A stretch of DNA of 64,000 bases from Asterias amurensis (taxonomy: Eukaryota > Echinodermata > Asteroidea > Forcipulatida > Asteriidae), in contig NC_092649.1 of assembly GCF_032118995.1 (NCBI RefSeq), positions 20,459,832 through 20,523,831 of the forward strand, in the 5' to 3' direction. Within the stretch, counting starts at the first letter, position 1, and each line of letters starts with the position of its first letter. The position numbers were made by a program, and so were the translations under genes. Below the pieces are notes generated by a model. That model was not told where the DNA came from. It made no database searches and was given only the letters and a program-made list of their open reading frames with translations. Of this stretch, positions 4,411 to 52,450 are shown piece after piece.

Positions 4411-4504
4411 AAGTGGTAAATGTTTTTCTAAGAAAGGGAGAAATGACTATCACTTTAAAAGTATTATACTGCAAAACACCAATACTTTACTAAAAATTGA
4501 CAAT

Positions 4505-4984: not shown

Positions 4985-5100
4985 GATATTGACAAAATAG
5001 AAAGACCACCAACATAGGGCTAGATAGCTCAGTTGGTAGAGTGCAGGCATGTTAATCCGGAGGTCGTTGGTTCAAGTCCAGCTCTAGTAAATTTGTCTTT
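4985..5100 (+). repeat. tRNA-like SINE head, second copy
   Basis: This is the best-preserved of three copies. The D arm GCTC/GAGT pairs, the T arm GTTGG/CCAGC pairs, and the B box reads GGTTCAAGTCC. The anticodon stem has at least two mismatches. The sequence after it (TTTACCC...CAGTCAGTTTCCCTTGTGG) is shared with 4620-4660 and with a hairpin at 23140. Confidence 0.6.
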
Positions 5101-5800: not shown

Positions 5801-5805
5801 AAGGT

Positions 5806-15784: not shown

Positions 15785-17760
15785 GCAGTAGCCCAGTGGA
15801 AGGCGCTCCGGATTCTGGAAGCAAAGGTACCGGGTTCGAAACACGGGTGTTCCTTTTTCTCCGCTGAGGGCCGTTGCTTTACTTGGTGGTGGGTGGGGTA
15901 GGGGGATACTCTGCCATAAGGAAATCCTTGCTCTACACTGGGTAATTAATAGGTAAACAATTGGCGAGTTTGACTATGCTGCATATTATGTTTTATTTGT
16001 TAAAGTTGTTCGTCCTAAGGTTTAAAATTAAACTCAAACGCCTGTCATTTAACGGAGTTGTGGTCTAGTGGTAGGGCTCCGGATTATGAACTGAAGGGTT
16101 CCGGGTTCGAACCCAGCTGTTCTTTTTCTATGACCAATCTAAGACAATTGATTTACGCATAACCCTATGACATAGGGACATTCTTGCTTTACACTTAATC
16201 AAATTGCCAGCTTAAGGCATACGAAACATAATGGTTTTGATTTAAAGTTGTTCATTCGAAGGTAATAAAGTAAACTCGGGGATCCTAAGTAAGAAGACAC
16301 AGTTTTTATTTAATGTTGCTCATTCTAAGGTTTAAAATTAAATTCGAAAGCAATTAAAGTAAGAGGACTTTATGGCTCAACGGAAGGGCTACGGACTCCA
16401 TACCAAAGGGTACCGGGTTCGAGCCCGGGTGTACTTTTATACAACTCGTACCATTGGTTTACGCAGTACCCTATGGCATAGGGAAATGCCTGCTTTACAC
16501 TTCATAGCATGCGAGTGGAAGGTTATACGCTATAATACGTTTTGATTTAAAGTTGTTCATTCTAAGGTTTATAGTTAAACTCGAACGCAGTCAAGTAAGA
16601 GTAGTTGTGGCCTAGTGGAAGGGCTCCCGACTCTACACCGAAAGGTACCGAGTTCGAATCATGGGCGTTTTTTTTACTACATTTTGTTTTTAAGTTGTTC
16701 AACCTAAGAATTAAAGTTAAACTAGATCAAAATTCAAGTAAGAGGACTCAATGGCCCAGTGGAAGGGCTCTTGGCTCCATACTAAATGGTACCGGGTTCG
16801 AATCACGGGTGATCTTTTACTACAATTTAATTTAAAGCTGTTTAACCTAAGGTTTAAAATTAAACTCAAACGCAATTTATGTAAAAGGATGGTGGTCCAG
16901 TGGAACGGCTCTGGACTCTACACCCAAAGGTTCTGGGTTCGAGCCCGGCTGTTATTTTACTACTCTTAACACAATTTCTTTGCTCAGTACCCTATGGCAT
17001 AGGGAAATCCTTACTTTACACTTAATAACATGCGAGTGGGAGGTAAACGCTATAATCTATTTTGATTTAAAGTTGTTCGTGCTAAGGTTTAAAGTTAAAC
17101 TCGAACGCAAAATAAGTAAGGGGAGCGGTGGTCCAGTGGAAGGGCTAAGGGCTCCATACCCAAAAGTACGGGGTTCGAATCATGGGTGTTCTTTCAATTC
17201 CTTTTTGAAAATTGTTCGTACGAAGGTTTAAAATTAAACTCGAACGCATATTTAGTAAGAAGGAGCAGTGGCCCAGTGGAAGGGCTCCGGACTCTGGACC
17301 GAAAGGTCTCGGGTTCGAATCCTGCTGGGTGTTCTTTTAATCCCGTTTTGATTTAAAACTGTTCATACGACTGTTTAAAATTAAACTCGAACGCATATTT
17401 AGTAAGAAGGAGCAGTGGCCCAGTGGAAGGGCTCCGGACTCTAGACCCAAAGGTTCCAGGTTCGAATCATGGGTGTTCTTTTAATTCCGTTTTGATTTAA
17501 AATTGTTCATACGAAGGTTTAAAATTAAACTCGAACGCATATTTAGTAAGAAGGAGCAGTGGCCCAGTGGAAGGGCTCCGACCTCTGGACCGAAAGGTCC
17601 CGAGATCGAATCATAGGTGTTCTTTTAATTCCGTTTTGACTTAAAATTGTTCATACGAAGGTTTAAAATTAAACTCGAACGCATGTTTAGTAAGAAGGAG
17701 CAGTGGCCCAGTGGAAGGGCTCTGGACTCTGGACCGAAAGGTCCCGGGATCGAATCCCGT
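15785..17760 (+). repeat. Right array of 11 tRNA-like modules
   Basis: Plus-strand modules lie near 15785, 16056, 16370, 16603, 16748, 16892, 17130, 17270, 17412, 17556 and 17701. Each has 'AGTGGCCCAGTGGAAGGGCT' and 'GGGTTCGAATC' or a close variant. The last four are about 142-145 bp apart and nearly identical, including the spacer. The array mirrors 10810-12602 module for module. The small ORFs spanning several modules (16605-17231) are not genes. Confidence 0.75.
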
Positions 17761-29345: not shown

Positions 29346-29514
29346 TCATAATCCATTGACGTTACCGTTTGTTCGTTCGGCCGAGGCATCGTCCGAATCG
29401 ATGGAGGTTCTCGTATGGGATTTCTCTTTATACTCTGTAATAATCACGGGTACGTTGTTGACCACAACTTCCGTACTAATGGCCGAGCTCCGATCGACAT
29501 TTTTTAAGCGGGGT
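29346..29514 (-). CDS. RYBP: RYBP terminal exon with the RING1/CBX-binding segment
   Basis: Acceptor TTTTTCAG; 55 residues, then [22 protein letters not shown] followed by [11 protein letters not shown] aligns with the vertebrate C-terminal segment that forms a hairpin on RING1B. The tail is short and Ser/Asp-rich, without the long Ser-rich end of vertebrate RYBP. Confidence 0.92.
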
Positions 29515-32500
29515 CTGAAAAATGATGAAAAAGAAAGAAGAACAAAAATTTTAATAAAGAGCATTTACAATGCGCCGGTATCCATCTTAAAGGAACACAT
29601 TGACTTGGACCAGTCGAGTTGGTCTTTGAAAAGCATTTGTAACCGTTTGTTATAAAATGCATGGTTAGAAAGATGTTTTAAAAGTAGAATACAATGATCC
29701 ACACAAATTTGCCTTGAAAATGCGTGTATTTACTTTTACTTTGCGAACTAAAACAGTCGGCCATTTATGGGAGTCAAAAATTTGACCTCCATAAATGGCT
29801 GACCATGGTAGTCCAACCCACAACCTTTGCCACTCTAGAGCAGGGCCCAATTGCATGGCTCGGCTTACCAAATGCTTGGGAATCGGCGCTTGCTTGACTC
29901 GGCGCTCAAATTCGGCACTCACACAGCTAGCTCAGAATTTTGGCGCTTGCACGTAACTGGAGAATGGTGATTGTTAGCGCAGAACTTGGCAGTAAGCAGA
30001 ACTAGTATTTATGCCAAGATGTCTTGCCACTAGACCAACGAGATTGCCCATCAGCAAGAGGCAGCTTGAATGCCTTATTTTAGCAGTGTGAACCGGACCA
30101 ATTTAATTGTTCAATTTACTGGTAAAGAAAATCATTAAAAGACACTTGACACTTTTGGTAAAAGTCAGTCTTCTCACTTGGTGTATGCCAACATATGCAT
30201 AAAAAATAACAAACCTGTGAAAATATGAGCTCAATTGGTCGTCAAAGTTGGGAGATAACTATGAAAGAAAACACCCTTGTCACAACAAGTTGTGTGCTTC
30301 CAGATGCTTGGTTTCGAGACTACAAAATTTTATTCTGAGGTCTCAAAATCAAATTCGTGGAAAATTACTTCTTTCTCAAAAACTACGTCATGTCAAAGGG
30401 AGCCGTTTCTCACAATGTTTTAAACTATCAACAGCTCTCCATTGCTTTTTACCAAGTCAGTTTTTTGCTAACAATTATTTTGAGTAATTACCTTACCAAA
30501 AGTGTTCACTGCCTTTAAAGGAGATGGTTGAGTTTCTTACCTTGGTTTCTTAGATGTACCAGCTTTCCTCTGTGCTGGACTCCGTGCAGTTGTCTTCGCT
30601 GTCTTGACGTGAATCAGTGGAGACAGATTCTGCTGAGCTTGTTGCTGGGCGACTAGTTGTGCATTAAGCCTTGGTTTTCTGCCATTCAAAAATGGATTGT
30701 TAAAAAAAAAGTTAATAAATATTAAATTTGCATTGGGGATAAGGAATATTAATTTCGAGTTAACCCATACATCGATGTGTGTTAGCACTGTATATTCAGT
30801 ACTTTCCCCGGGTTCTGTGGAAAAAAACACAGGAAAAATTACTCAGGTGGTATTTGAACCCCCAACCTTTGCAATTGAATAGCAGTCTATAACCAACTAG
30901 ACCACTGAAAGTCTAGTTGGTAAGACACTGCTCTAGAATTGCAAAGGTCAAGGGTTTGAATCCCACCAGAGTAATATGTCTGTGATTTAAAAAAAAAAAA
31001 CTTGAGAAAGTACTGAGTATACAGTGCTAACACAGAATTCCTTGTACACTGTGAACTAACACGGTCTGCAATTTTGAAGAACAATTTGACTCCACAAACT
31101 TGCGTGCCACAATTCACAATAAAAAGGAAAATCGTGCAAGTTCGGGGCATATTTGTGTGGATAATTATATTCTACTTTTAAGGGAGGAGCTGCGTACAGC
31201 AATGGAAGATCTACATGTTTGGAGGGCCATCAGCAGAGTGTGGGTTTGAATCCCCAGCCATGACACTTGTGCCCTTAAGCAAGACACTTAACCGTTGCTT
31301 CGTCCTTCGAATGGGACGTTAAGTTGTTGGTCCCATGTGTTGTGTAACGCATGTTTAAGGACCCAGTGCACTTGTCGAAGAGAGAAGGGGTTCGCCCCGG
31401 ACTTCGTGGCTGTGGCTGCTAAATGCGCCGTAGCACCTTGTAAACCCTTACAAAGTGCGACATAATTGGGTTTAGAATTCATAACTTTCGCTAACCTCTC
31501 TTTCTGTATAAATGTAAATACTAAGCGCCTTGAGTAAATGAACCTTGTTGGTAAATACATGCGCTATATAAGACTTTGATATATTGGGTGCATTTGACTA
31601 GCGTCCATGGATCGACACCGCGGTGCTCACTTGGGTGAACCCATAACAAGAGCTAACAAACGATCGCTTACCCTCTCGTAGTGACGTCATGCACCTGGGG
31701 CCAGCCCCCAATTGACCCACTCCACAAGCAGGGCACTTTGGGGCTGACCCAGGTGAGCCCCTGAAATGGCGTCAAAGCTATTCGAACAAACATACTGGGG
31801 GCAGACCTCGGTCAACCCAGGGAAGCTAATCGAACGCACCATATATTATTAAATCATCTGATGTTCTGAATGGACTGAATGAATGAATGAAAGTTTAACC
31901 ACTACTCACCTAGTGGAAGTGCCTTTGCGGACATCGCACATAGCACACTTGAATGCCTCTGCTTTGTTTCGATAAGTACACACACTGCAGTCCCAATAGG
32001 AGCCCTCTGGCGACCGAGAACTTCGCTTAGCTCGCCTGAAAAACAAGTTTGTAAAATATAAGTGAATAAAAGAAATTCAAAATAAATAATGATAATACGA
32101 ACTCTGTGGGTTCTTATATAATACATGTAGTAGTATATCAAACAAGGGGCGTATCAAAGCCCTAATTATACATTCCTGCAAGGTATGTGGATATAAATTT
32201 TGAAGTATGAGACATACATGTATTCCTTTTTAAAACAGCACCATGTAAGGATTTACAAAGTGCTGTGGGGCTATTTATAGCCTTTTGTCGAGGCCTCTGG
32301 GCTTGGACAGCGACGATGAGTCGCGGTCCCAAGCGACCGGAGCGGGAGACCACACGTGAGTGGCTTAGCCACAAGGGTCTTTTCCAACTTGTTTTGTGGT
32401 TTTGTTGATGAACTGTTCATAGATTATGAATAATAATAATAATAACCCGTTTTTATATAGCGCTTTTCACACCCGGAGGGCGTCCCAAAGCGCTTCACAT

Positions 32501-35500
32501 TATTACCCCTGGTCACTGGGCCTTAAATCACTCCTTAAACCGTCTCAACTACCCGGTGGGGAGTATGCAGCCTGTGCAACATTAATATGCGCTACTCGGC
32601 TAAATCAATCACAAGAACCATCTCTGCCCTCGCAGGTACCCATTTACCCCTGGGTGGAGAGAAGCAATTATAGTTAAGTGTCTTGCTCAGGGAAACGTGC
32701 ATTAATGTATGCTGACCCGCTGACCTTGACATTTGGGTAGCAAAAGTCAAGATTTAAAGAAACAAATAAGAAACATAAGTTGGAAAAGGCCCTCGTGGCT
32801 TCGCCTTTCACGTGTGTGGTTTCCCATTCCAGACGCTTGGGATCGCAGCTCTACAAAGCTGTCCAAACCACGAAGGCCTTGACAAAAGGCTAGGCTGTAT
32901 GCTGCCAATCAAACCAGTATGATAAGTGAACTGGGTTCCTTTACATACATCACACAACACAAGTGTAACGACTGGAACTTAAACCCAAACTCTGCTGATC
33001 AGAAACACCAGAGCTTAGCGTTATTATTTGCTCGGCCATGACAAACCATTACAAAAAGAGTTGTTTCTTTTTTATACCCAGCCAAATTTTAAAGAGCTTC
33101 GTCTTCTCTCCATGGGATTCTTGGCTATGCATAGTGATTAATTTCGCTTTTCTGGGAGTCCTTGGCTTCACAACCGGATTTAATAAAAATGAGTGAATGA
33201 ATTGAAGCATATAAAGTAGCTACATGTAAGAACAATAAAATTATGCTTACAAGACAAAAGCCTAGTTCATACTTCCCGCAATGTGAATGCGATAGAAATC
33301 TTGACTACACATAGCTGTTTTCACAGCGAATGTTTCGCAGGAGTTGAGCAAATGTAAACTTCGCAACATAAAAATTTGATTCACATTCGCAGGAAGTATA
33401 AGCTCTCAAGTCAATCCAAACGACTGCCACAGTCGATCTCAGCATAGCTACTTGCTCCCAACTATTTCAGATGTCAAAATGTTCATGTACAGGTTGTAAT
33501 TATTTTTATTCAATAATTTGGTTAGGCGCAACTCTGGGGCGCCTGTCTGGACCGGTTATTGCTTGAATCTCCTTAACACCATACATGTACATGTAGTAAA
33601 GATTCCTTGTGCACGCCCAAGCAAATTTTACTTGTATTTACATGGCAGGTATGGAATTACGAAGAGGCCACGGTCTTGGCCTTGGTGCCCCTTCAAATGT
33701 TTCCCATAGACTTCAAGATTTTCCAATGGAAGTGCCCTTCGCAAAAATGAAAATGGCCTTGCCCTTTCAAAATTGGAATTCAGGCCTGACATGCTGGACA
33801 AAACAAATTCATGTACGAGCGTACATACACACAGGCCTGATACTTCACGGAGGCAACGAAGGCGATTGCCACCATGCCCCCTGGTCAGTGCCTTGGTGCC
33901 CTTGAAATGATACAGTAGACAGTTTCCTCATAGGGTGCCCTTTCCCAAGAAGAATGTGCCTTAGTGCCCTTGCCATTTCAATAACTAAGCATACAGACCT
34001 GTACACATGCAGAAAGATAAAGAAATGTGAAGTGCACATCCCGTTAAGCATACGCACAACAACTCATTGTCATCAAATTTGATCACGGACAATAATGTTC
34101 AATTTACATTCAAAACAAAATGTACATACAGTACACTGCAGAACACCTGCAGTGTACATGTATCAAGCATGATGTTTGTTCCTTGGAAAAAAAGCAGGAA
34201 CATTTATCGAGTGCTAGAGCTGACCTCAAGTACATGTACATGTACCTGTGGTGTAACGGCTTAATAAAGTCTGATTTATCCAAGGGCAATCCAAAAACGG
34301 ACTTTTAAGTACACATGTAGGAAGAATCATAATAGTAATAATAATATTGAAGTCTTATAATATACATGTAGCACATGTATCTGCCACACCAGGTACTCAA
34401 GGTGCCGAGTATAACAAACTTTCCAGAAAGATAGGTAATTGCAGTGATGAATTTTGAGACCCAATTATTTAGCACCTTATAAGAGTTTACAAGTTGCTAC
34501 GGCGCATACAGCAGCCACAGCCAGGAACACCGCGCAAACACAAGTGTCATGGCTGCGAATTCGAACCCACACTCTGCTGATCAGAAACAACAGAGTTTGA
34601 ATTCGGTGCTCTTAACAGCTCGACCACGACACTTCGTGCCTGATGTATACTGTAAATGTCCTGGGGTGGATTTCACAAAGAATTAAGACTAGTCTAATCT
34701 TAAGTTACTGCGAGTAACTCGTCCTAACTTAGGACTAGACTTCAGTTTTTAATATCTCCTAAGACTAGACCTATTCCCTTTGTGAAATCGACCCCAGTAA
34801 ACCTAAAAAGACATGTAAACACTAAATGCGTATCATTACAGAAACAACTTTTGTTTTGTACAAGTTCCAACCCTACCTCTTGTTGCCAGCTGAAGTGGTG
34901 GACAGGTGCGCTAACGAGTTTGAATTCTTTCTCTTACGGGAGATTCTATTTCCTTGACGAGTCGTCCGAGCCATTGATGTTCTTTGAACCGCTTCCTCGA
35001 GAGACTCCAAACTGCAAAACTCCTCCAAGACAAAGTCCTCATCGTTGGCAGGTCCAACGTAACCAGGAATTAGCACCTGGATCTTATGAATGAGCTCAAG
35101 CTGGTCTGTAGCTGACAATGTTGCTCTGCTTCCACTGACAGAAGTGTTCAGTTTCTTGGGACGACCCCCCTTTCTAGGTCTCGGAGCTGGCTCTTCGGAT
35201 TCCCCAAGAAAGCACCTTGCGATTATTTGTTGTTGCAGTTGCTCTGTTTGTGTTGAAGGTGCTTCCACTTCACCTAAAGGAATCTTTCTGGGACGGCCCC
35301 CCTTGTTTTTAGGTCTAGTTGGCTCTTCACATTCTACAAGTAAGTTTCCTTTTATACTCTGTTGTCTAAGTTGTTCTGAAGGGGTTGAAGGTGCTTGCAC
35401 TTCACTTAAAAGAATCTTTCTGGGACGCCCCCCCTTGTTTTTAGGTCTAGCTATTTCTTCAACGAATGGAATCTTTCTGGGACGACCCCACTTATTTTTA

Positions 35501-38500
35501 TGTAGTGGCTTTTTAACAGCTGACGCCCTTTTAAATCCACCTAAGTAATTCAATTCAAAACGATATTTACTTTTCGCTTTAGGTTCTTGGCTCTGTTGAT
35601 CAATTCCACATGGGGAGTTATTTTTGCGACAGTATTTCCTTTTGGGTTTAGGTTCTTGGCTCTGTTGATCAATTCCACTTAAGGAACTATTTTTGCGACA
35701 GTATTTCCTCTTGGGCTTAAGTTCTTGGCTCAGTCGGTTCCTTTTAATTCCAGTTAAGGAACTACTTTTGCGACAGTACTTCCTTTTGAGTTTAGGTTCT
35801 TGGCTCTGTTGATCAATTCCACTAAAGGAACTACTTTTGCGACAGTATTTCCTTTTTGGTTTAATTTCCTGGCTCAGTCGATTCCTTTTAATTCCACTTA
35901 AGGAAATTGTTTTGCGACAGTATTTCCTTTTGGGTTTAGGTTCTTGGCTCTGTTGACCAATTCCACTTGGGAAATTATTTTTGCGACAGTATTTCCTTTT
36001 GGGTTTTAAATCTTGGCTCAGTGTTTTCCTTTTGGTTCCATAAAAGAAATTCGTTTGGCGACAGTATTTCCTTTTGGGTTTAAGTTCTTGGCTCTGTTGA
36101 TTAATTCCACTGGAAGAAGTGGTTAATTTCTTGGGACAGCTTATCTTCCTTTTAGGTCTCGTTGCTGGCTCTCCAGATTCTCTGAGAAAGCTCCCTTCGA
36201 CAATTTGTGGCTGATGTTGCTCTGTATGTATTGAAGGTGCTTCCACCTTATTCAGAGGAATCTTTCTGGGACGACCCCCTTTGTTTTTAGGTCTCGCTGT
36301 TGGCTCTTGAGATTCCCCAAGAAAGCTCTCTTTGACAGTTTGTGGCTCAAGTTGCTCTGCTTGTGTTGAAGGTGCTTCCAACTTATTTAGAGGAATCTTT
36401 CTGGGACGACCCCCCTTGTTCTTAGGTTTCGTTGCTGGCTCTTTAGATTCTCCAAGTAAGTTCCCTTTGATGATCTGTTGCTGAATTTGCTCTGAAGGAG
36501 TTGAGGGTGCTATCACTTCACTGAGAGGAATCTTTCTGGGACGACCCCCCTTGTTCTTAGGTCTTGTAGCTGGCTCTTCAGATTCTCCAAGTAAGTTCCC
36601 TTTAATGATCTGTTGTGAAGGTTGCTCTGAAGGGGTTGAGGGTGCTATCACTTCACTTAAAGGAATCTTTCTGGGACGACCCCCCTTGTTTTTAGGTTTC
36701 GTTGCTGGCTCTTCAGATTCTCCAAGTAAGTTTCCTTTAATGATCTGTTGTGAAGGTTGCTCTGACAGGGTTGAGGGTGTTTGCACTTCACTGAGAGGAA
36801 TCTTTCTGGGACGACCCCCCTTGTTTTTAGGTCTCGTTGCTTGCTCTTCAGATTCTCCGATTAAGTTATCTTTGATGATCTGTTGCTGAATTTGCTCTGA
36901 AGGGTATGAGGGTGCTATCCCTTCACTAATAGGAATCTTTCTGGGACGACCCCCCTTGTTTTTAGGTTTCAGTGTTGGCTCTTCAGATTCTCCAAGTAAG
37001 TTTCCTTTCATGATCTGTTGTGGAGGTTGCTCTGACAGGGTTGAGGGTGTTTGCACTTCACTGAGAGGAATCTTTCTGGGACGACCCCCCTTATTTTTAT
37101 GTAGTGGCTTTTTACCAGCTGATGCCCTTTTAAATCCACCTAAGAAATTCAATTCAAAACGATATTTACTTTTCGGTTTAGGTTCTTGGCTCTGTTGATC
37201 AATTCCACATGGGGAGTTATTTTTGGGACAGTATTTCCTTTTGGGCGTAGGGTCTAGGCTTTGTTGATCAATTCCACTTAAGGGGGTTTGCACTTCAACT
37301 AAAGGTATCTTTCTGGGACGACCCCCCTTGTTTTTAGGTCTTGTTGCTTGCTCTTCAGATTCTCCAAGTAAGTTCCCTTTGATGATCTGTTGTAAAGGTT
37401 GCTCTGAAGGGGTGGAGGGTGCTATCAATTCACTTAGAGGAATCTTTCTGGGACGACCCCCCTTGTTCTTAGGTTTCAGTGCTGGCTCTTCAGATTCTCC
37501 AAGTAAGTTTCCTTTAATGATCTGTTGTGGAGGTTGCTCTGACAGGGTTGAGGGTGTTTGCACTTCACTGAGAGGAATCTTTCTGGGACGACCCCCCTTA
37601 TTTTTATGTAGTGGCTTTTTACCAGCTGATGCCCTTTTAAATCCACCTAAGAAATTCAATTCAAAACGATATTTACTTTTCGGTTTAGGTTCTTGGCTCT
37701 GTTGATCAATTCCACATGGGGAGTTATTTTTGCGACAGTATTTCCTTTTGGGTGTAGGGTCTTGGCCTTGTTGATCAATTCCACCTAAGGGGGTTTGCAC
37801 TTCAACTAAAGGTATCTTTCTGGGACGGCCTATCTTCTTTTTAGGTATCTTTGCTAGTGTTGAAGGTACTTTTACTTCACTTGCTGGATTCTTTCTCGGA
37901 CGGCCCCCCTTGTTTTTAGGTCTCATTGCTGGCTCCCCAGATTCTCCAAGTAAGTTTCCTTTGATGATCTGTTGTTGAAGTTGGTCTGTAGGAGTTGAAG
38001 TAGCTTTTACTTCATTGAGAGGTATCTTTCTGGGACGGCCCATCTTCTTTTTCAGTCTCAATGCTGGCTCTCCAGATTCTCCAAGAGAGTTTCCTTTTTG
38101 TTGGCGTTGCTTTGCATGTGTTGAAGGTTCCTTTTCTTCACTCAGAGGAATCTTTCTGGGACGGCCCACCTTTTTAGGTCTGGTTGGCTCTCCACATTCT
38201 GGACCCTTTTTCTTTGGCCGAACTCTCTTCACATTATTACCAGCCTTACTGTTCAGAGTTTGTCCAACTTTGGGCTTTAATCCTTTCGCAATTGTATTAT
38301 TTCTCTGATACCATAGCCGATTGCTTTTGATGGCATAACCTTTCTTGACCTTTGAGCTCCTTGTAAAAGGTTTCCTTTCTTTAGATTCAATAATTGAGTT
38401 CTTCTTTGGGCGTCCAACCTTCTTAGGAATTGCGGGATCTGATTTTCCTTCGTCTTTCGTCAGTTGTTTGCTGCCAGGCTGATACAACCATGGCAGTTTT

Positions 38501-41500
38501 TCCTTCTTTGGGCTTCCAACCTTTTTAGGAATTGCAGGATCTTGCAGCTTTCCTGATTTTTCTTCGTCCTTCCTCTGGTGTTTTCTGCCATGCTGATATA
38601 ACCATAGCCGTCTTTTCTTCTTCGGGCGTCCTCTCTTGTTGGGTATACTCATTTCTGTATCAACGGATGAGTCTTTGTATCCCTGGTTGAGTACCTGTTT
38701 TCTGTAGTCTTTCTGTCGCGGTTCGCATGCTAGAAGCGACTGGTCAGAAAAGTTTTGCTCCAGTTTGAGTCCAGGGTTGTCTACATGAGTGTCAGGCAGG
38801 ACCAAAAGCGAAGGCTTGTCTTTGACTGAAACATTCATGGTGCATCTTCTTAAGGTCTCTGCGTTATCTTCCTGATGGTTTAAGACCCGAGTCTGCTCCA
38901 TGACGCCTGAAACCCCCGACGATTCCACCGTTGCAGGATCTTGTGGACAAACTTTTCCTGGACGTCCTCTCCTTGGTATAAGAAAGCGATGGGGTACAGT
39001 GTTTCCAAATTGACTCCTTCTTTGGTTATTGGTAAACACTGAACCAGTGAGAGGCATTGATGACAACTGGTGACGCTTGATTCGTTTGGCTGGAAAGATG
39101 TAATCTTCTGGGCTCAACGTCTTTGAGGCTGTCAAATGTCGTTTTCCGATTCTCCGACTTGTTTGTGGAAACTCTGAGATTGGCATTTGCACCATCCTGT
39201 GTGGCGAAGTGCTGGTAAACACGCGATTTATTGGACGGTATGATTGGTAGGTTACCTCTGGCACAATTAAGTTTGATTGATAGCGACACTCCTGGTGCTG
39301 ATTTCCTGTCATAAACAGTGGTTCAGGCTTCACACAATCTTCATCAGGAATTTGCGACAGTTCTTTTTTAATCACCATATACTTTCTTTGGTCACTCATG
39401 TGCGATTTCCTCTGTTTGGATTTCTTAAATCCAAGACGCGAAAATAAGAAATGCTCATCTTTTTTCCGAAGAGTCATACTTGCTAGGAGTGGTTTCCGCC
39501 CAGTTCTGGTCTTGCAAACTCGGTTTACAATGTCTGTCTGTTTAGTCATGTTGCCATGTTGACTTAGGTTGCCCTTAAGCGCTGTGGTAAATGGTGTTTC
39601 AATCATCGCTGAGTCCGATTCTACAGCAGAAACTCTGTCATCTGTACTTGAGTCTTCCTCTGGCATTGATCCTTCAAACATTGGCGTAAACTCTTGATCT
39701 TTGGGAGTTGCATGTGAGAAAGAAACGCTGCTGCTGTCAGGTGACACGTCAGGTGGTAACTGTTCCGATGAAGATGTTTCTTCTGATGAACACTGGAGAG
39801 AATCATTTGTCGTCTCAAATTCAAGTGATGACGTCCGTTTCTCGAACTGACAACCTCTGGAATGTTGAGGCTTCATGGTACCTTGATTTGGCTGAACAAA
39901 TGCAGACAGAGTGTCTGTCTGCGAAGGATAACATATCACTGGCGACTCTGTCACATTTCTGATCTCATTCTGTGTTGACAATAAATCAGGTTTCTTATTG
40001 GCAGCAGAATTAATGAGTGATGAAACTTGTTGTACACTAATTGGCTCTGCAGACGTTTCCTTTTCATTCGCTTTCTTCATTAACGGAGCAATATCTAGCA
40101 AAATGGACTTTGGCTTAATACAGTTCTCTTCCCTGTGACTTGTTTCCTTTTCATACATAGACTGATGTTTCTGAGGCATCGTTGTCATTTCCGGGCCATT
40201 ATCCAAGTCCTTATGGCTTGCTGCTCCACTGCGAACCGAGTCTAGTGGACTACTACAGCTTGGTTGTGTTCGTTCCAATATCACAGGCCGTACTTCATCG
40301 ACCTCCTCTTTATTGACTCTCTCATAAAAATAGGCAATTCGTTGTCCTTTGTTCTTCGGAACTCTTTTGATATTCCACAACTGTTTGAAGTTGAATGATT
40401 TCTTCACGTCCTCTGTTGTCGTACACTTGGATTTTTCTTCTTGAATGTTTTCCTGTGCTTTAGATGTTGGCGTACGAGATGATTTCTCCGAGGTTGTAAG
40501 GTTTTCTGAGTCATGTTTAGGCGACAAGTCGGGTTGAATAGAAACCGTCACAGAATCTGAATCAACTTGACCCGGGGAATGTGCTTCTTCTGGACTTCTG
40601 CTATAGGTTACATGTAGTTCTTTCACTTGATTATCACAGCGTTGCAGGTCCTTCGGTGGTTCAGCATCGCTTTTAGGAGGTTGTAGCTCAACCTCGTCCG
40701 ACCCTCTGTTGGAATCACTCTGAAGAAGTGGGAGCAGTAAGTCTTTTGCACTTGTATCGGACACTTCATCCTGAGTTAATGAGCAGCTCTCTGTGCCATC
40801 TATGTTTGCCTGGTTCATGTCCGAAGCAGAGGGATGAGACGTCATCGCTAATGACGTGGTTCGAGTCTTACTGTCGTGTTGTTCATCAGACTCTGGGCTT
40901 TCCTGACTCGTTACAAGTTCACTTGCAATACTTTGAGATGATTGTTGATAACTGATGTGCGTTTGATTGCTGCATGTATCTTGTTCAGTGAACACAGGGG
41001 CAGTTGCTGATCCATTGTCTGGAATTTGATTCTCTGCAGGAATGTCAACAATGTCCGTATCACAACTCGGACTTGATGAATCTTGTTCAGACACAATGTG
41101 AAAGGAGCGGCCATCTTGTTCAAGTTGGTCTGAGATGTCAATATTTTCTTTTCCCGTATCACAGTTAGGATTTGGTGACTCTTGTTCAAACACAATAGGA
41201 ATGGGGCGGCCATTTTCCTCAAGTTGCTCTGAGATGTCAACAGTTTCTTTTCCCGTATCACACCTAGGATTTGATGACTCTTGTTCACACACAGTTTGAA
41301 CGGAGCGCCCGTCTTGCTCAAGTCGGTCTGAGTTGTCAACAGTTTCTTTTCTTGTATCACAATTAGAAAAACTTGACTCGTTTTCACACTCAATGTGAAT
41401 GGGACGGCCATCTTGCAGAAGTTGGTCTGAGGTTTTAACAGGTTCTTTTTCCTCATCACAATAAGGGATTGATGAATCTTGTTCACACACAGTTTGAATG

Positions 41501-44500
41501 GGGCGGCCATCTTGCTCAAGTCGGTCTGAGATGTGAACAGTTTCTTTTTCCGTATGACTTTCTGGATTTGACGAATCTTGTTCACACACAATCTGAACTC
41601 GAAGGCCACCGTGTTCACTTCTGTCTGAAACTTCAACAGTTCCTATTTTTGTATCACAATCTAGAATTGATGACTCTTGTTCACACACAATGTCAATGGG
41701 TCGGCCATCTTGCACGAGTTGGTCTAAAATGTCAACAGTTTCTTTTCCTGTATCACAATTAGGAATTGTTGAATCTTGTTCACACTCAATGTGAATAGGA
41801 TGGGCATCTTGCTCTGAAAGTTGATCTGAGATGTCAACAGTTTCTATTTCCTCATCACTTTCAAGACTCGATGATTCAAATTCAGACACAATCTGAATTG
41901 GGCGGTCGTCTTCCTCAAATTGGTCTGAAAATTCAACAATGTCTATTTCCTCATCAAAATTAAGGAAGCCTTGTTGAACGTCTGTGTCTTGTGTTTCAAA
42001 TGTATTGTTAGGATCCTCAAGTGACTTGATGTCGTCACTAAAGCTGCCATCTTGTGGAGTGGAACCATCTCCTGAAGTGGTTTGTGTTCCTGCTTTATTT
42101 TCAGGATTTAATGACCCACGTTGACTGGTGAGGTACAAAGAGCCACTCTCATGTTCGCTGAGTGTGTCTTTATCACTTTTAGGGCTCTCTGTGGGATGTG
42201 GAGAAATGATGCAAGGAGGACTGCTACCAGGTCCACTCTGAGCTGCCGAGTACACCTGTACTAAAGTGGACTGCGATACAACTTCAACATCAGGACTTGG
42301 TGTTTCACTCGAGGATATAATAAGACTCAGAGTACCGTCAGCTTCAGCGACGACTTTGCAGTCGCTGGTTTGTGTGTCTTGTTCAGTACTGACAGGGGAA
42401 AGACAGCAAGTTGGTTCAGGAGAAACTGAATCGTCATCTAAACTTTGCGATTGAGAAACAATGAGATTTGTGTTCTCACATTCTTCTCTGGACACTTGGG
42501 TAGCGTTTGATGCTTCATGGGACACGTCGCTAGGAGTCAGTCTTTCATCCTTTGCGCCTTCAACATTATTTGCACCAGAATCAACTTCACAAAAGGCGTC
42601 TTTGAGATTACTTGCGTCTTTTTGCGGTCCACTTGTTTGGCATGTGGTTTTTTCCTGCAAGTCTTTGCAATTCCTCACCGCCAGCTTTTGATGCTCCATG
42701 GTGCTGGTTTCAGGTGCTTCGAGCAGCACCTGACTGTATGTTTCGGTGGATACGTTATCTTGCACGGTAGGCACCGACTGGTTAGGATTTTCCTCATTTT
42801 CCTTCTGTTGTAAACCAGTTTTTGTCCTTCTTCTTTTTCTCTTGCGTTTCCGTTTCAGACGTACTGGTTGATCACTAACCAGATGAACCTGTTCTTCAAT
42901 TTGTCCTTGAACCAATAGCCAGTGTTTGTAGCTATGCAAGTCTCCATTGGACCGATATCTTGCATACGGTCGAAGCCCCATTACAATTTTGGGAGAGTAA
43001 GCTAAAGTTGCTTGACAGGCTGTCTTGAGGTTATCTTGATCCTGTAAAATCAGAGGCATCTGTACCCTTTTGCCTTCTGGGTCGGTGAATTGTTCACGAT
43101 CATCAGACACTTTCGTTTTTAGCAACTTCAGGCGACTCTCTTTCTGGATCCTTTCAGATGAATCTTTGGCATTTCTTCTCTTAGACAATGTTGATGAGTT
43201 TCCTTTTGCTGTGTCGTTAGTTGTGTCTTCTGAACAAAGACTTGTTTTCTGAAGTTTTCCTCTCGGCTTTGTCTTTATTGCACTACTCGAGTTTATATTG
43301 CTTTGGCACGGAGTTGAACTTATAATTGCTGTGCTCTGTACTTTGTTAAGACCTGCATGGTTTATAGCGATATTCCCTGTTGTTTGCACATCCTTTTCAC
43401 TATCTGACTTGAGCGCGGTTCGAGTCCCTGCCACTTCCCTATCCCTTAAATACTGTCTCTTTCCATCAGAATGTTGAGGGACACTAGAAGCTTGACACTC
43501 ACTCGAACCGTCTCCATGCAGTATGTGACTGACGCTTTCATAACAGAGTTTGTTCAGTGTGACACTGACTTCATTCTGAATCAACAACTTTGTTTGATTT
43601 CCTCCCACCGTTAGTCTCTCTGGTGTACTTAATACTTGCACTTCTTTCTCATTGACTATTTGACACTTTGGTGTTGGCACTTGTGGTGAATTACATGTAA
43701 ATGAAAGCTGAGCTTCCATTTGTGTTAAGGCAGGCGAACTTTTGGCACTCTTTACGGGGTACTTTTGGTGACTGGTTTTCAAAATTTCAGTACATGAAAT
43801 TGTCTTCTTTCGATTGACTGCACTTTTATTGAGCGCATTGGCACTATTATCCCTTTCTTTATTTATCGATGACATCCACTTTGTGGTTGAATTCACACCA
43901 CCTACTGCAGAATCTTTCGGTTGAGAAGGACACGTATGGTGACTTTTGGTTTCTTTGTTTAGTTTTGATAGCACAGGTATGCACCTTCTGTTTGGTCCAA
44001 CAACAACAATATGTGAACTACATGTATTCTCTACATTGGTATGTTGATCAGTTTTCTCTCTTTCGGGGAAACCTGAGGTAACCGTCTTGTTTGGTTTCAG
44101 CAGCATCGTAGTTTCCCCGACACTTTTTGCTTTCCTGACATTTATCTTTTGATTCCGATAATGTCTCGATAACAACAATTTTGATTGCTTTTGGTGGGTC
44201 GATGTCCTCTTCCAAACCTGTCTATAACTTTCACTTTTAGGCTCACTTGATGCTACACGTTGTCTCCGCGATCCGTACTTTTGTTTAGCGGTTTTCGTCT
44301 CATCCACAAGCTTGGTGTGACCTGAAGAATGACAAATAGTTTTAATGACTGAGAAGATACCTACATCTTCTGCATATTCTTTGATATCGCTCACAGATGG
44401 CTCACGGCTTGCCTTCTGAGAGGAACTTGAAGTTTGTTTCGCTCGTAGCCTCCGCTTAATGGGACTACGCTGAACTTCCGAAGATGTATTTGTTTCTTGT

Positions 44501-45300
44501 TTACTTGTGTCCAAGGTGTTCGAGTCGTGATTGTGGAATTTATCATCTACATGAACGGCATCTGACGGACTGCACCGAATGGGTAGGCGATTCAACGAAG
44601 GGTCTCCCAAAGAATCTACTGAAGCACCTACTTTTGAGAGGGTCTCAGAATGCACCTTGAGTGTCCTCTTTCGTCTGCTACGCAATACAGATGAAGTCTT
44701 CTCATTTAATCGACGTAGCATCATATTTGGTTTTGAACGCTGGGTGGACACCGCTGAAGATCGTTTACCTGAGGCGGGGGAAAATCTGCGTCTTGTATTC
44801 CGAACTGTAGTACTCGATGAAGACGGTGAAACTCCACCTCGTGTACCCTGAATCTTTTTTAATACTGATTTGTTTGATGTAAGGTTTATTGGCAACCTCA
44901 TTGTCTCTCGGTTTGCACTTGGAGAAGTTTCAAGAGAAGTTTTTCCAGCACTGCTGTCACTTTCCTGCACATGTTTATCTAAAGCAATGATCGCCTGTTT
45001 AGCAGCTTTTCTAGATGTTGTTCTAGCCTGGTCACAAGTTGCCGTCCTCCTCTTTGACCAACCGACATGAGGAACATAATTCTTATCAGGACCTAGGCTT
45101 ATAGCAACCCTCTTCCTTTTGACAATTGCACATGATTCCTGATCCTCCATTGTTTGGCAGAACGTTGCCGAAATATTCTTGATTACGTTTTGTTGCACTT
45201 TGGCGACTCTGCGTTTCTTAATGCACATATTGTGGTTCACCTGAACCTTGGCTCGTTTGCTGTCCTTCGAAACATCATCTTGCTTTTTCTGTCGTTTCAT
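29346..45300 (-). CDS. RYBP: Giant RYBP/YAF2 homologue with AT-hook and SIM-like repeat N-terminus
   Basis: Four exons: 45300-34877, 32035-31910, 30678-30541 and 29514-29346. All have GT/AG introns, and every junction splits a codon 2+1 in agreement. The product is about 3618 residues. Order: basic, Ser-rich N-terminus with a [10 protein letters not shown] signal near residue 815; nine 33-residue acidic repeats (about 1112-1415); 21 AT-hook GRP cores (about 2110-3382) mixed with KPKRKYCRK repeats; then the RYBP part. That part comprises a RanBP2-type finger (WDCSVC, ten residues, CAMC), [12 protein letters not shown], and the C-terminal PRLKNVDRS...[11 protein letters not shown] that in vertebrate RYBP binds RING1B and CBX proteins. 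Vertebrate RYBP is about 228 residues and is a subunit of variant PRC1. The fusion is inferred from splice phase. A separate short RYBP first exon elsewhere is possible and not excluded. Confidence 0.78.
29586..29815. repeat. Rearranged copy of MITE family B in RYBP intron 3
   Basis: 'AAAGGAACACATTGACTTGG' starts the left arm. The copy reaches the central turn 'TATGGGAGTCAAAAATTTGA' and stops about 20 bp beyond it; most of the right arm is missing. Confidence 0.65.
29825..30005. repeat. Palindromic repeat family D, partial
   Basis: 'GCCCAATTGCATGGCTC', 'AGCTAGCTCAGAATTTTGGC' and 'AGCGCAGAACTTGGCAGTAA' match the repeat at 26040-26350. Confidence 0.55.
30139..30520. repeat. MITE family A copy in RYBP intron 3, beside the linker exon
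   Basis: The ends are 'AAAGACACTTGACACTTTTG' and 'CAAAAGTGTTCACTGCCTTT'. The right end is about 20 bp from the exon 3 donor. Confidence 0.75.
30541..30678 (-). CDS. RYBP: RYBP linker exon
   Basis: It encodes [16 protein letters not shown], which matches the vertebrate KPRINSQLVAQQ block, followed by a Lys/Thr-rich linker ending TSKKP. The acceptor is GGCAG and the donor AG|GTAAGA. It is shorter than the vertebrate linker. Confidence 0.9.
30838..30970. repeat. Inverted pair of tRNA-like heads
   Basis: Minus-strand 'GTGGTATTTGAACCCCCAAC' is followed by plus-strand 'GGTCAAGGGTTTGAATCCCA', meeting near 30905 at 'CCAACTAGACCACTGAAAGTCTAGTTGG'. Each half has A- and B-box-like sequence. This is a foldback of a tRNA-derived SINE. 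Confidence 0.6.
31195..31575 (+). repeat. tRNA-derived SINE with GCGCTATATAAG tail
   Basis: 'CAGCAGAGTGTGGGTTTGAA' (B box), 'GACACTTAACC', 'GGGACGTTAAG', 'AAGGGGTTCGCCCCGG' and the end 'TGCGCTATATAAGACTTTGA'. Same family as 157-953. It lies in RYBP intron 2. Confidence 0.65.
31910..32035 (-). CDS. RYBP: RYBP zinc-finger exon
   Basis: The exon lies between TTCAG and AG|GTGAGT. It encodes [19 protein letters not shown] and then a finger ending [12 protein letters not shown]. Cysteine spacing is C-x2-C-x10-C-x2-C, the NZF/RanBP2 pattern. The ubiquitin-contacting TF pair of RYBP is TY here, a conservative change. In vertebrates this finger reads H2AK119 mono-ubiquitin. Confidence 0.93.
32275..32890. 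mobile_element. Inverted-repeat element interrupted by a SINE, RYBP intron 1
   Basis: The left arm (about 32278-32400: 'TAGCCTTTTGTCGAGGCCTC', then 'ACCACACGTGAGTGGCTTAG') is inverted in the right arm (about 32765-32888). Between them lies a reverse-oriented SINE (32423-32695) that ends with AAT repeats. The flanks of the SINE are consistent with insertion into the loop. Confidence 0.65.
32423..32695 (-). repeat. Reverse-oriented SINE with (AAT)n and ATATAGCGC tail
   Basis: From the left: AAT repeats, 'TATATAGCGCTTTTCACACC', 'CAAAGCGCTTCACATTATTA', then the body shared with 1205-1500. This is the most complete 3' end of the family in the window. Confidence 0.7.
33600..34010. repeat. Degenerate repeats in RYBP intron 1
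   Basis: 'CTTGGTGCCC(C)TT(C/G)AAATG' occurs at about 33677 and 33890, with 'CATAGGGTGCCC' following the second. The same words occur at 28900, 46790 and 60300. No gene is seen between 32900 and 34870. Confidence 0.45.
34500..34640 (-). repeat. tRNA-derived SINE fragment, reverse orientation
   Basis: 'GCGAATTCGAACCCACACTC' and 'TGCTGATCAGAAACAACAGA' are the reverse of the head seen at 386-480. Confidence 0.6.
34675..34800. repeat. Small palindromic MITE family E (GGGGTGGATTTCACAAAG ends)
   Basis: The left GGGGTGGATTTCACAAAG pairs with CTTTGTGAAATCGACCCC at the right. The inner arms contain 'AAGACTAG' and 'CTTAGGACTAG'. It lies about 75 bp past the donor of the giant exon. Relatives: 24790-24845 and 57800-57945. 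Confidence 0.75.
34877..45300 (-). CDS. Giant first coding exon (10,424 nt, 3474 codons plus 2 nt)
   Basis: The frame is open throughout. I start at the ATG at 45300-45298 (context ACAATGA, in-frame TAA 15 nt upstream); the GTG two codons earlier is an unlikely start in an animal gene. The exon ends AACAAGAG|GTAGGG, so the in-frame TAG overlaps the donor and is used only if the intron is retained. The region before the repeats contains phosphorylatable Ser/Thr-rich stretches. The last part (about 3385-3440) changes to a helix-prone sequence ([17 protein letters not shown], then [14 protein letters not shown]) that is not repetitive and may fold. I know of no RYBP protein with such an extension. 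Antisense ORFs across 35090-38308 and the 241-residue frame at 40911-41636 are shadows of the repeats. Confidence 0.8.
35573..36090 (-). repeat. Coding repeat: alternating 23- and 25-residue KPKRKYCRK units
   Basis: The motif GCGACAGTA (minus-strand coding for YCRK) lies at 35626, 35695, 35770, 35839, 35914, 35983 and 36058. Spacings alternate 69, 75, 69, 75, 69, 75 bp, giving a 144-bp dimer (23+25 residues). The short unit carries [15 protein letters not shown] and the long one [18 protein letters not shown]. No frame is lost. Confidence 0.9.
36241..37790 (-). repeat. Coding repeat: 45-residue AT-hook units with a 507-bp higher-order duplication
   Basis: The AT-hook codons (plus-strand ACGACCCCC) lie at 36271, 36406, 36541, 36676, 36811, 36946 and 37081, every 135 bp exactly, and again at 37318, 37453 and 37588, also 135 bp apart. 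Each unit reads roughly [15 protein letters not shown] followed by a Ser/Thr/Gln linker and [13 protein letters not shown] longer block including [17 protein letters not shown] occurs twice, 507 bp apart (37081 versus 37588), nearly identical, so it is recent. Confidence 0.9.
41040..41965 (-). repeat. Coding repeat: nine 33-residue acidic units with SIM-like cores
   Basis: The codons around CTTGTTC (minus-strand EQ[DE]) lie at 41082, 41181, 41280, 41379, 41478, 41577, 41676, 41775 and 41877: seven steps of 99 bp and one of 102. The units read like [16 protein letters not shown] then xIVCEQDSS. Cores PIQIVSE, PIDIVCE, PIPIVFE and RVQIVCE fit the hydrophobic-x-hydrophobic plus acidic/Ser pattern of SUMO-interacting motifs. 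SUMO binding is inference. Confidence 0.85.
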
Positions 45301-45780
45301 TGTCACTAAAAAGTCTTACACAAAGGATACTGAATAGTCTTCGGTATTGAATATCAAAATATTCAGTTTAGCTGCAATCACTACAGTTTCTGATCCTTTG
45401 TGCTTTTGAATTTTTCGTCAAAATATTTACAGAACAATTATCACCAACCGGCTTTGATTACTCTCCTTCCGAGTCAGACGCTTGATCACACTTCTATCCT
45501 TGCGTCGTGTCGCTCTGGTTCCATTGCAAGCTGCAGCCGTTGGGTTCAGATGAAGTGTCCACAGCCACAGTTTGATCTGCAGTAGATGCGAAGTGGAGTT
45601 ATAGTCACCATATATTTCAGTAAAAGTTCTTTTTTTTTCAGATGGCAAAAGTATCCACTTATAAATCCTCACAGAAGACAGACCCCAAGAAGTGGCAGTT
45701 GCATCCCAAGAAATCAATTTTTGTTTACATTCATGAAGAGATGATACATTTATGGTCATGATGGGAGGTTGGTTTACAGG
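45301..45780 (-). promoter_or_regulatory. 5' UTR and probable promoter side of the giant RYBP gene
   Basis: Non-repetitive sequence upstream of the ATG. It has an in-frame TAA 15 nt upstream of the ATG and locally more CpG around 45470-45540. A 110-residue ORF at 45427-45759 has no recognisable domain and could be a chance frame in the UTR. No TATA box can be assigned. Confidence 0.35.
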
Positions 45781-46344
45781 GTCTATACTTTATATGCCTT
45801 GGAAATCCTTGCTTTATCAAAACACAGTATCATCCTACTATGTATGTGCAGGGATGTTAAAGGCTGTTTAAAAAAAAACTGAACTGTGAGCGCAAATCGT
45901 TAAGCTTTTAATGAAATTGATACTAATTAAAAGAAGAAAACATTAATGTAACTTAGTTTTTATTTGCGGGGGTATGGGGGGGAGGGATACAAACAAAATT
46001 ATCAAAGGGATAAACCGGTTCAAAACGATGGGTTTTGAGGCATTGCATAGAATGGTGCAAGTTTTTATCCAGGATTTGGTAAAAGGGTGTCACAAATTGC
46101 TGGAAATATAAAAACTTGGTGCCCAAATTGTTCACTTACAAATAGAATTTCACATGTAAATAACAAGTACAATTAAAATAGGGTGTCCAAAAGACACCCT
46201 TTTGGCTAACACTATGGAATTGTGAGGTATCAATGTATAATTCAGTTTGCGATAACACTATGTTTATCTTAGCTGTGTAGGTTTGTGCTTTACAATTGCC
46301 TTGCTTTTTAATCTATAGGGCCTCGTTCATCTATAGGCACCCCC

Positions 46345-47483: not shown

Positions 47484-48795
47484 CACAAAATACAGACAAC
47501 TCGTGACCCCTCACAAAAAACAATTTTAAATGCACTTAAAAAGAAGAACATTTGAACATAAGTCAACTGTTAAAAATATGTAGAAGAGTCATATGCATAC
47601 TAAATCACTTTCAAACTGTTGAAAAAAAATGTATTTTTACCTGTACAAAAATTGTGTTTTTTACCCTGAATTAATACAACGGTAATATCTGCCATGTTGT
47701 CTTTCGACGTACCTGGACGATAGGCCTGGGCGAATTATTCGAATATCCGGTTAATGGCGAATAGGTTTTCCTATCCGTAACCGCGAATGCCATTTTTTTC
47801 TTAACCGGATATCCGCATAGGGCGCGAATACCTATTTACAAACCGGATAATTCTGTAATTATAACCGAGTAACCGGATATTCTTTAACTATCCGAATATC
47901 TGCGGACGTCGGGCGACAACTGATATGAATGTTTTGTCAGAATCCTTATGAAACTTCTAATAAGACAGCATAAAACAGCATAAATTAAGTATTTAACTAT
48001 GCTCAACTCCGTGAAGAGTTAAAACAATGACATTTCTGACGTAATTTGTTCAAAGATTGCAAAAGTTTTCCTTCACGTAGAGTCAATCACGATCAAAAGA
48101 AAAAGCAAATCGCCATCTTTAAATTAGATCCGGTCATTTTTATGAATGAACCGAGTGACACTGTCTAAAACTAATATAGATCCGCCCATAAAATCTCATT
48201 CACAAACGAACAGCGCCCTCTAGTGGCAAAAAAAAAAAAAAAAAAAGTTGGAAAAACTATTCGAATATCCGGTTAATTTCGGATAGTTGGCCAGCGGTAT
48301 CCGAATAACAAAATTTCACTATTCGCCCAGCACTACTGGACGATACCATTATACTGCAGGGGTCATTTCTAGGGACTGATTTTTTTATAAGTTTTTATTG
48401 GTATAAGCTGCTGTTATGTTTTCGTAAATAACTAAGTCGCCACTCTGGTTACAAGGGAAATTTAAATACAATAATTTATTTTTTCAACTCCATGAGAGGT
48501 GCACATAAAATGGTAAATAATCATTTTGCATTTTGTATTACCCCCTGCGGTATATATAATGGCATCGTCCAGGTACGTCGGAAGACAACATGGCAGGTAT
48601 TACAGTTTGTTACTAATTCGGGGTGAAAAAATTTTTTTACAGTTAAAAATACTTTTTTTCAACAGTTTGAAAGTGATTTAGATGCATATGACTCTTCTTA
48701 CATATTTTTAACGGTTGACTTAAATGTTTAAAATGTTCATTTAAAGTGCATTTAAATTTTGTTGTCATGAGGGGTTGTGAGTTGTTGTAGTGCGA
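47484..48795. mobile_element. Long palindromic element interrupted by a hAT-like insertion
   Basis: Left-arm words 'AAAAATATGTAGAAGAGTCA', 'TCACTTTCAAACTGTTGAAA', 'GCCATGTTGTCTT' and 'CGACGTACCTGGACGAT' recur in inverse order at 48567-48740. The right arm runs out to 'CACAACTC'-like ends. There is no transposase. The outer palindrome is older than the 615-bp insert. Confidence 0.75.
47721..48335. mobile_element. hAT-like miniature element (615 bp), exact 8-bp target duplication
   Basis: It starts TAGGCCTGGGCGAATTATTC and ends ATTCGCCCAGCACTA (inverted: TAGTGCTGGGCGAAT). CTGGACGA at 47713-47720 repeats exactly at 48336-48343. Inside are repeated 'TATTCGAATATCCGGTTAAT' words and an A-run at about 48227-48245. 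TAG-type TIRs and an 8-bp duplication fit hAT. Non-autonomous. Confidence 0.85.
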
Positions 48796-50322: not shown

Positions 50323-52450
50323 GCAAGTGCAACTGCAAGATTGAACTGAACATGTCAATCAATTTTATAATTTTATAAATTGCTTGCTTGAATTGAATCA
50401 GGATTTCATGAAAAATGCATAATGTAGCTTAACCAACGTCCGTGCTAGAAACATATCAATAAATTTATTGCTATAAAAAAAAAAAAAAACACCCACCAAA
50501 CTACTGCCTGGGTATGTGTGTCCGAAAACTGGGCACCCCCCCCCCCCACACACACAGCCATCTATTCATTTAGCATGCAGCGCATGTGAATGTGATCTGA
50601 CGAGCGACGGCAAAAATTGTGCCAACTTAGACCTTTTCAGCTAAATAACAGGCAAACAAATACACATAAAAATCAGTGACATATATAAAGCAGTAATGTA
50701 TTCAAACAATTGAAGTATTTTTACCCGCTGGGGATGCGTTTTTGGTCCATTATTTCAGCTCGGAATTCTCAAATTATTACTGCAACCAATATGGAGACCC
50801 TGTGCAAAAACGCGCTAGTTATAATATGCACGAACAGCGCCACACAGCGACCAGTATGAGAAAGTCAATTAATTTAGTTGCCACTTTCGATCGCTGTCGC
50901 GCACCGGGCGACAGTTTAGTCTTGGACATGTTTGAAAAGTTTCTGAATATCTTGGACAAGTTTAATAGTTTCTGCAAAATCTTGGGACAAGTTTGATAGT
51001 TTCTGCAAACTTACTTGTACTGTTTGACAGTTTCTGCATACTCTTGTCAAGTTTGATTGTTCCAGCCTTATCTTGGAAAAGTTTTTATACCTTTATTCTT
51101 AACATTCTACCAGTCAGCTAGACACCCCCCCCAAAAAAAAAAACAAAAACAAAAAAAAAACCCAAATGTATACACCATCTGACCTAAATATCCAGAAACA
51201 TAAGGTGAAATTGTCGTAATTGAATTAGATATATATTAATTAATTAGTTTCAAAAGTCTTTATTTTCAATTTCCACCCCCTGCCCTCCCCCACTTTCACA
51301 AAGAAATAGAACCGAAGCAGATTTGATTGCAAAATTGATATAGGCATACAATGTATTTTTCAGTTCGGTGAAAAACACAAAGTTATGCATGAGACACAAT
51401 TAAGTACACATAATAGGACAAGCTTCGTACTTACAATAAATCTTTTATCAATTAACATTTTCACATCTCAAGTAATACATGTTCTTTACTTGCAAAATAT
51501 ATAGTAAAATTTTATATTTTTTTCAGTTCATAAAGAACATACAGTTATACATGATACAGAAAGTACACTTGTGAAAAAAATAGAAATTCAGTATAAAAAA
51601 TAATTATACAAAAGTACACATCTTACGTCAATACATCTTTTGATAAAAAATTCAGGAACATTTCATGTCATTTCATGTAAATTTTGTCCCAATAATGAAA
51701 CCAAGGAAAACACTTAATAATTAAGTACCCACCGGGTACATAATTCTAACTAAGTATAACTGCCTTTAATTCTAAGTATAAAAAAAATAAAAAAAATACA
51801 ATTATTTTGTTCAGTTACTTTTAAACAACATTTCCCTACAATTTCGAAAGAAAGAAGAACTTAAACAGCCAATAAAGGATGATCTCTAATATATAGATAT
51901 TACAGTTTTCTAACAGCTGCAATCCATCCAAGAAACATAAAAAATAATATATTGAGTCTCTTACCTCATGTTAAACATGGTAAAAATGGGTTTTTCTCCA
52001 GAACGCTCCAAGCCAAATTTCTGAAAAACGTGGGGTAACAAGCCCACGCGACAAAGGGATCGTGACGTCAGTGGCGGCTATTTGGTGTGGAAATGCCAAA
52101 GCTGGAGAACTGTGTTCAAAACCAATAGGGGATAATCGTCACTGGCGTCCAGAGTCATTATAATAGATAAGCCGTTTTTAAGTTTTTAAGTTAAACAATC
52201 TTACAAATAATCAAAGCAATAAAAGTATCCACAGTACAACAAAAATTGAAAATAGTACAATACATATATTGTGGCTAGCTGTCCGAGGGAAGTAAAACCA
52301 AAGATAGTTATCTTAAAAAGCATTTTATGTATAAAAGTAAACAATGCATTAAAATGCAAATGATATCCAACTCCAAACCACCAAAACCAACCCAAAACAC
52401 ACATGCAGTGAAAAAGCAGTTTCAATGGGTTTACAACAGGGCAAAAGGCA
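50323..52450. other. Low-complexity AT-rich intergenic sequence, no gene seen
   Basis: It holds an A-run near 50480, a C-run near 50527, and 'TTGGACAAGTTTGATAGTTTCTGCA' type words repeated about four times at 50930-51060. A mixed A/C run lies near 51125. The 84-residue frame at 50742 is not supported by any domain. Confidence 0.4.

Follow-up and report, generated by a model that had tools for sequence, protein, structure and literature searches.

The RYBP locus of the starfish Asterias amurensis quite probably encodes two proteins from two alternative first coding exons, a 152-residue RYBP and a giant form, RYBP-XL. The locus lies on the minus strand of a 64,000-nucleotide stretch of contig NC_092649.1 (hereafter, the window), and the coordinates of its parts are collected in Table 1. 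In the proposed arrangement, the ancestral exon MDQKRIPSG would be joined to exons 2-4 to produce an ordinary RYBP. A 10.4-kb exon located in intron 1, with a start codon of its own and presumably its own promoter, would be joined to the same exons 2-4 to produce RYBP-XL, a protein of 3618 residues.

Table 1. Features of the RYBP locus in window coordinates (a slash in a donor sequence separates exon from intron)
Feature	Position	Strand	Remarks
Likely short RYBP first coding exon, MDQKRIPSG (last codon split)	50725..50750	-	Donor GG/GTAAAA
Giant (XL) coding exon	34877..45300	-	3474 codons + 2 nt; donor AACAAGAG/GTAGGG
Conserved block 1, residues 24-88	45037..45231	-	Asterias vs Acanthaster E 4e-6, 29% identity
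Conserved block 2, residues 752-798, LRPY..YRS...KHWLLxQ	42907..43047	-	E 4e-6, 44% identity
Acidic 33-codon tandem repeat, partly SIM-like	41055..41950	-	Tandem Repeats Finder period 99
Conserved block 3, residues 1942-1974	39379..39477	-	E 4e-9, 64% identity to Acanthaster
Basic region, 20 GRP(R/K/N)K AT-hook-like cores, partly 45-codon tandem repeats	35152..38634	-	
Conserved block 4, residues 3406-3465, LIPGY...	34906..35085	-	E 6e-9, 46% identity to Acanthaster
RYBP zinc-finger exon, shared exon 2	31910..32035	-	Pfam PF00641
RYBP linker exon, shared exon 3	30541..30678	-	Splice sites in matching phase
RYBP RING1/CBX-type beta-hairpin exon and stop, shared exon 4	29346..29514	-	PF17219 E 2e-13

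The giant exon and its probable join to the RYBP exons

Exons 2-4 were read directly from the genome; their acceptors are AG, each donor linking one to the next is GT, and the phases agree. Jointly translated, they matched the PDB RYBP chains (E 3e-32). In P0121, the NCBI 'uncharacterized protein [Asterias amurensis]', the families PF00641 (Zn_ribbon_RanBP, 31.4 bits with a cut-off of 27) and PF17219 (YAF2_RYBP, the C-terminal hairpin, 51.7 bits with a cut-off of 22.4) were both found above their cut-offs. These results bear out the initial annotation, which had taken the zinc-finger, linker and RING1/CBX-binding exons to be those of RYBP. Of the 19 candidates scored across the 491-Mb genome, one matched PF17219 at E at most 0.001, so that, within the reach of that search, this locus would supply all RYBP; it is apparently the sole RYBP/YAF2 gene of the starfish.

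Starting with an ATG at 45300, the giant frame stays open along the minus strand until a TAG stop at 34875-34873. Its translation is identical to residues 1-3474 of P0121; it is present in the Asterias rubens model P0122 as well and, in diverged form, in the Acanthaster planci model P0123. When the segments 45300-34877, 32035-31910, 30678-30541 and 29514-29346 (minus strand) were joined, they gave 3618 residues with one terminal stop, letter-identical to P0121. The exon length of 3474 whole codons (plus 2 nt) and the product length proposed earlier were thus reconstructed exactly. The contig behind P0121 is slightly longer than that of the window (30,813,796 compared to 30,808,926 bases), so the model may come from a different assembly version. 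A Pfam search of the giant part had no match across about 3475 residues. The unusual gene structure is real, and the fusion of the giant exon to RYBP through the putative junction is likely.

A candidate short first exon

In the A. amurensis genome, the MDQKRIPSG exon precedes the giant ATG by 5.4 kb, which places the giant exon within the apparent ancestral intron 1 of RYBP. An in-frame stop precedes it by 21 nt, and the A at -3 and G at +4 make a favourable start context. In both first exons the last codon is cut after its second nucleotide, and the frame continues into exon 2. Joined to exons 2-4, the short one gives a protein that is 69% identical to Diadema RYBP and aligns with it from residue 1; the exon itself shares 7 of 8 residues with the acorn-worm start MDQKRSPS.

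The exon was chosen by eye from 4 matches in an earlier 132-kb scan with filters on phase, donor and residues. A scored scan of 184 kb considered ATG-started peptides ending at a phase-matched GT; its yardsticks were the starts of 9 proteins chosen from 120 listed RYBPs, with P0003 trimmed to its second Met. MDQKRIPSG ranked 1st of 2337 minus-strand candidates with a score of 74, a modest lead over the runner-up at 69, and the plus-strand control reached a maximum of 66 among 2077 candidates (mean 41.7, sd 6.2).

The RYBPs of sea urchin, brittle star, sea cucumber, feather star and acorn worm often have MEGKRSSSGR- or MDQKRSPSR-like starts. Among the seven named non-asteroid echinoderm RYBPs (147-173 residues), four have the start M-D/E-x-K/R-R, P0003 has it after an upstream Met, and P0006 and P0008 start otherwise. 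At the A. amurensis locus, this start is present via the 50750-50725 exon only, and the giant form is without it. The MDQKRIPSG exon likely corresponds to the ancestral RYBP start. Vertebrate RYBP, for its part, has a KKSP-type first exon; on the minus strand of the window this pattern had 3 matches, all downstream of exon 2 and none with a Met separating the motif from the last stop, and it was rejected.

According to the initial annotation, no frame upstream other than the giant ORF had a donor in matching phase. That claim does not hold, since MDQKRIPS followed by the GG/GTAAAA donor fits too. Its broader statement, that RYBP has become giant, survives as far as the join is concerned, which is backed by the sequence and by three starfish models, but is probably too strong. 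An apparently normal short first exon has been retained, which suggests that the giant form is an alternative product.

CpG content marks neither first-exon start as a promoter, with observed/expected ratios of 0.86 around 50501-51000 (short start) and 0.69 around 45251-45750 (giant start). A local peak of 1.2-1.6 is located at 47501-48500, in RYBP intron 1 between the short and the giant exons. A 120-codon open stretch just upstream of the giant ATG (45430-45789, minus strand), for which Pfam gave no match, is a possible site of a 5' exon of RYBP-XL.

The giant form in other starfish

The fusion of the giant part to RYBP was observed in the protein models of three species, P0121, P0122 (A. 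rubens, 3105 residues) and P0123 (Acanthaster planci, 2085 residues). A search with the giant part returned P0121 and P0122 only (2 of 5528 candidates) and did not return Acanthaster, while the C-terminal 240 residues of P0122, used as the query, returned P0121, P0122 and P0123 (3 of 1365). The protein searches covered lengths of about 79-250, 1911-6080 and 1708-5434 residues, and a starfish RYBP of 251-1700 residues falls outside these ranges; Patiria was not named among the matches listed. We take Acanthaster to belong to a different starfish order from Asterias (Valvatida versus Forcipulatida), so the giant-RYBP arrangement would be old.

Between A. amurensis and A. rubens, the identity was 94.0% over residues 1-2200 (2016/2144 aligned, 58 gap columns), 91.1% in the repeat region 2201-3290 (575/631, with 459 gap columns and an uncertain alignment), 95.1% over residues 3291-3474 (175/184) and 100% in the RYBP part (144/144). 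The A. amurensis protein is 513 residues longer and has the same start and the same junction. For the predicted splice between the giant exon and RYBP, the sequence and the models from three starfish give good support; the NCBI giant models may be unsupported joins.

Alternative readings of the locus

It is unlikely that the giant ORF is a separate same-strand gene, nested in RYBP intron 1 and ending at its own TAG, which gene prediction merged with RYBP. Such a gene would agree with the ORF having its own ATG and stop, and, with the short first exon present, RYBP would have no need of the giant exon. The interval from the giant stop to exon 2 also contains one AATAAA and two ATTAAA (at 34753, 33510 and 33184), where 3.7 such hexamers are expected from base composition; a separate gene could use them. 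However, the stop of the giant frame coincides with a phase-matched donor, its triplet sitting within the splice site (AG/GTAG). The pattern of AGG followed by TAA or TAG accounted for 51 of 6899 stop triplets (0.7%) in the window, on both strands and in all frames, and a GTAG or GTAA donor after two codon bases creates such a stop automatically, as a phase-2 donor would. The giant exon donor is probably real. Before RAKR, the Acanthaster model has Lys-Ser and Asterias has Lys-Arg; a donor after AG in both would fit, Acanthaster being known here from its protein model. The nested gene is also at odds with the position of the Acanthaster junction at a similar distance past conserved block 4, which adjoins the junction (LEEAV and RAKR are separated by 37 residues in Asterias and by 43 in Acanthaster). 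Finally, the giant-part search, the same one that missed Acanthaster, returned no public model confined to the giant part.

Rather improbable is a replacement of the short exon by the giant one, which would make all starfish RYBP giant and MDQKRIPSG a relic or a chance match. We saw no named asteroid RYBP of 79-250 residues among the public protein matches listed (120 of 861), although the database does include models from these species, and the three starfish models are all long, with no isoform tag in the names shown. All of the 120 listed matches, some of them unnamed, had identities of at most 70%, compared to 87% for the RYBP part of Acanthaster; therefore, the listed proteins do not include a short starfish form. 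The absence of a short model would mean either that the short mRNA is rare, or that annotation kept the long frame only, or that the short exon is unused. Conversely, the short exon retains its frame, phase, donor, start context and the resemblance to the acorn-worm start, which makes a long disuse improbable.

An assembly or repeat artefact is strongly disfavoured and hardly credible: the giant ORF does contain tandem repeats and exceeds the A. rubens protein in length, but that protein has the same start and junction and the high identity over residues 1-2200 given above, the repeat periods reported within the frame are all multiples of three, and an Acanthaster homologue exists.

Conserved blocks and repeats of the giant exon

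Returning to the reading of one gene with two first exons, we observed four blocks in the giant exon that are collinear in Asterias and the far-diverged Acanthaster (pairwise BLASTP E 4e-6 to 4e-9). Local alignment was used here; a global alignment of the two misplaced most of the giant part. The blocks in Table 1 leave aside two further block 2 matches (E 0.004 and 0.006) and five matches with E at least 0.59. The KHWLL-type motif of block 2 occurs once in Asterias and three times in Acanthaster. Block 2 had no match in Pfam, and blocks 4 and 2 matched PDB sequences at E 0.6 or worse only, which is chance level. The 86 residues around block 4 had one match in the genome.

The giant part also has strongly charged regions, with a net charge of -20 per 100 over residues 1101-1420 and +13 per 100 over residues 2201-3390, compared to -1.2 to +7.6 per 100 (250-residue windows) in the giant part of Acanthaster. 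AT-hook-like GRPxK cores number 20 in A. amurensis, 15 in A. rubens and 1 in Acanthaster, and from these counts the array would be largely an Asterias trait. The canonical AT-hook core is RGRP, which occurs 1, 3 and 1 times in the three species, respectively. The AT-hook arm of the initial annotation is real as a repeat, but 13 of the 20 A. amurensis cores read GGRPRK, and the Pfam AT-hook PF02178, searched at E up to 10 with most matches above ~0.1 dropped, was not found in P0121, P0123 or two fragments. Given the milder charge of Acanthaster and its single core, it is the four blocks, and not the AT-hook array, that are conserved between Asterias and Acanthaster.

The initial annotation had also noted SIM-like repeats. 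With the SIM pattern taken as [VI]x[VI][VI] followed by acidic or serine residues, there were 6 matches in A. amurensis, 6 in A. rubens and none in Acanthaster. The 6 exceed what 500 shuffles produced (mean 1.2, maximum 5), but a single repeat family contains or adjoins 5 of them, and the case for SIMs is weak. A DNA-targeting function of the giant arm is only suggested.

Other features of the window

Ten chosen ORFs, out of 93 stop-to-stop frames of at least 80 aa, were searched against Pfam, with one match, a sulfatase domain fragment (58142-58531, minus strand, PF00884, E 1e-7) beside a long 15-base tandem array (58513-59904). A 428-residue open frame at 2716-4002 (plus strand) had no Pfam match at E 0.01. 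Tandem arrays of ~144-base units are located at 10820-11954 and 16536-17756; their consensus sequences are apparently mutual reverse complements, so these are possibly one repeat family on both strands.

Proposed role in variant PRC1

Variant PRC1 is defined by its subunit RYBP, which is small, ancient and conserved. Both products of the locus would keep the zinc finger and the hairpin; RYBP-XL would retain the first as a ubiquitin reader and the second as a RING1-binding element and, judging from these conserved domains, would bind RING1 and H2AK119ub. RYBP and CBX are described as mutually exclusive in PRC1, and RYBP as binding H2AK119ub (PMC9122586 and PMC10638273). Since RYBP-XL keeps the zinc finger and hairpin, and RYBP and CBX exclude each other, RYBP-XL would be expected to take the position of short RYBP or CBX in variant PRC1 and to carry its arm there, namely the basic AT-hook-like region, the acidic region and the four short conserved blocks. 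We infer that both mRNAs are made, that each has a promoter, that RYBP-XL is a member of PRC1 and that its arm contacts DNA.

For the starfish as a class, it is fairly probable that one gene supplies variant PRC1 with two RYBPs, an ordinary one and a form of 2000-3600 residues. The giant exon would have arisen within intron 1 before the Forcipulatida/Valvatida split and would give PRC1 a fast-evolving chromatin-binding arm.

The giant RYBP is more than 20 times larger than the ordinary one and has models in three starfish from what we take to be two orders. It would offer a natural setting in which to see what an additional arm made of basic and acidic repeats does to H2A ubiquitination and targeting. 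If true, it would be a striking example of a giant coding exon within an intron of a core chromatin gene. Among the openly licensed PubMed Central papers that were searched, we found no account of starfish or echinoderm RYBP, of its alternative first exon (by titles) or of the two NCBI gene identifiers, and no comparable PRC1 arm in other animals.

Comparison with known systems

The closest known system is RYBP/YAF2 itself, the variant PRC1 subunit, whose zinc finger, linker and beta-hairpin exons are matched by those of the starfish locus; the difference is the second, giant first exon, adding about 3475 residues without a Pfam match.

Long and short forms of a PRC1-linked protein are also known for KDM2B/FBXL10, where the short form comes from an alternative internal start (PMC4888662). 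KDM2B is, however, a different protein with different domains. CBX2 is a PRC1 subunit whose AT-hook is reported to bind DNA (PMC9122586). The giant RYBP, as a putative PRC1 subunit with AT-hook-like cores, would resemble it, but CBX2 is a different subunit, exclusive with RYBP, and the starfish protein has up to 20 mostly non-canonical cores.

Imprinting is a mark of GNAS. For XLalphas, an extra-large first exon of GNAS serves as an alternative and is spliced to exons 2-13 of Gs-alpha (PMC4309471). In the starfish locus, as in GNAS, a large and apparently alternative coding first exon is in frame with the exons common to the normal protein. The genes are unrelated, and the XL exon of GNAS lies upstream of exon 1, whereas that of the starfish lies inside intron 1.
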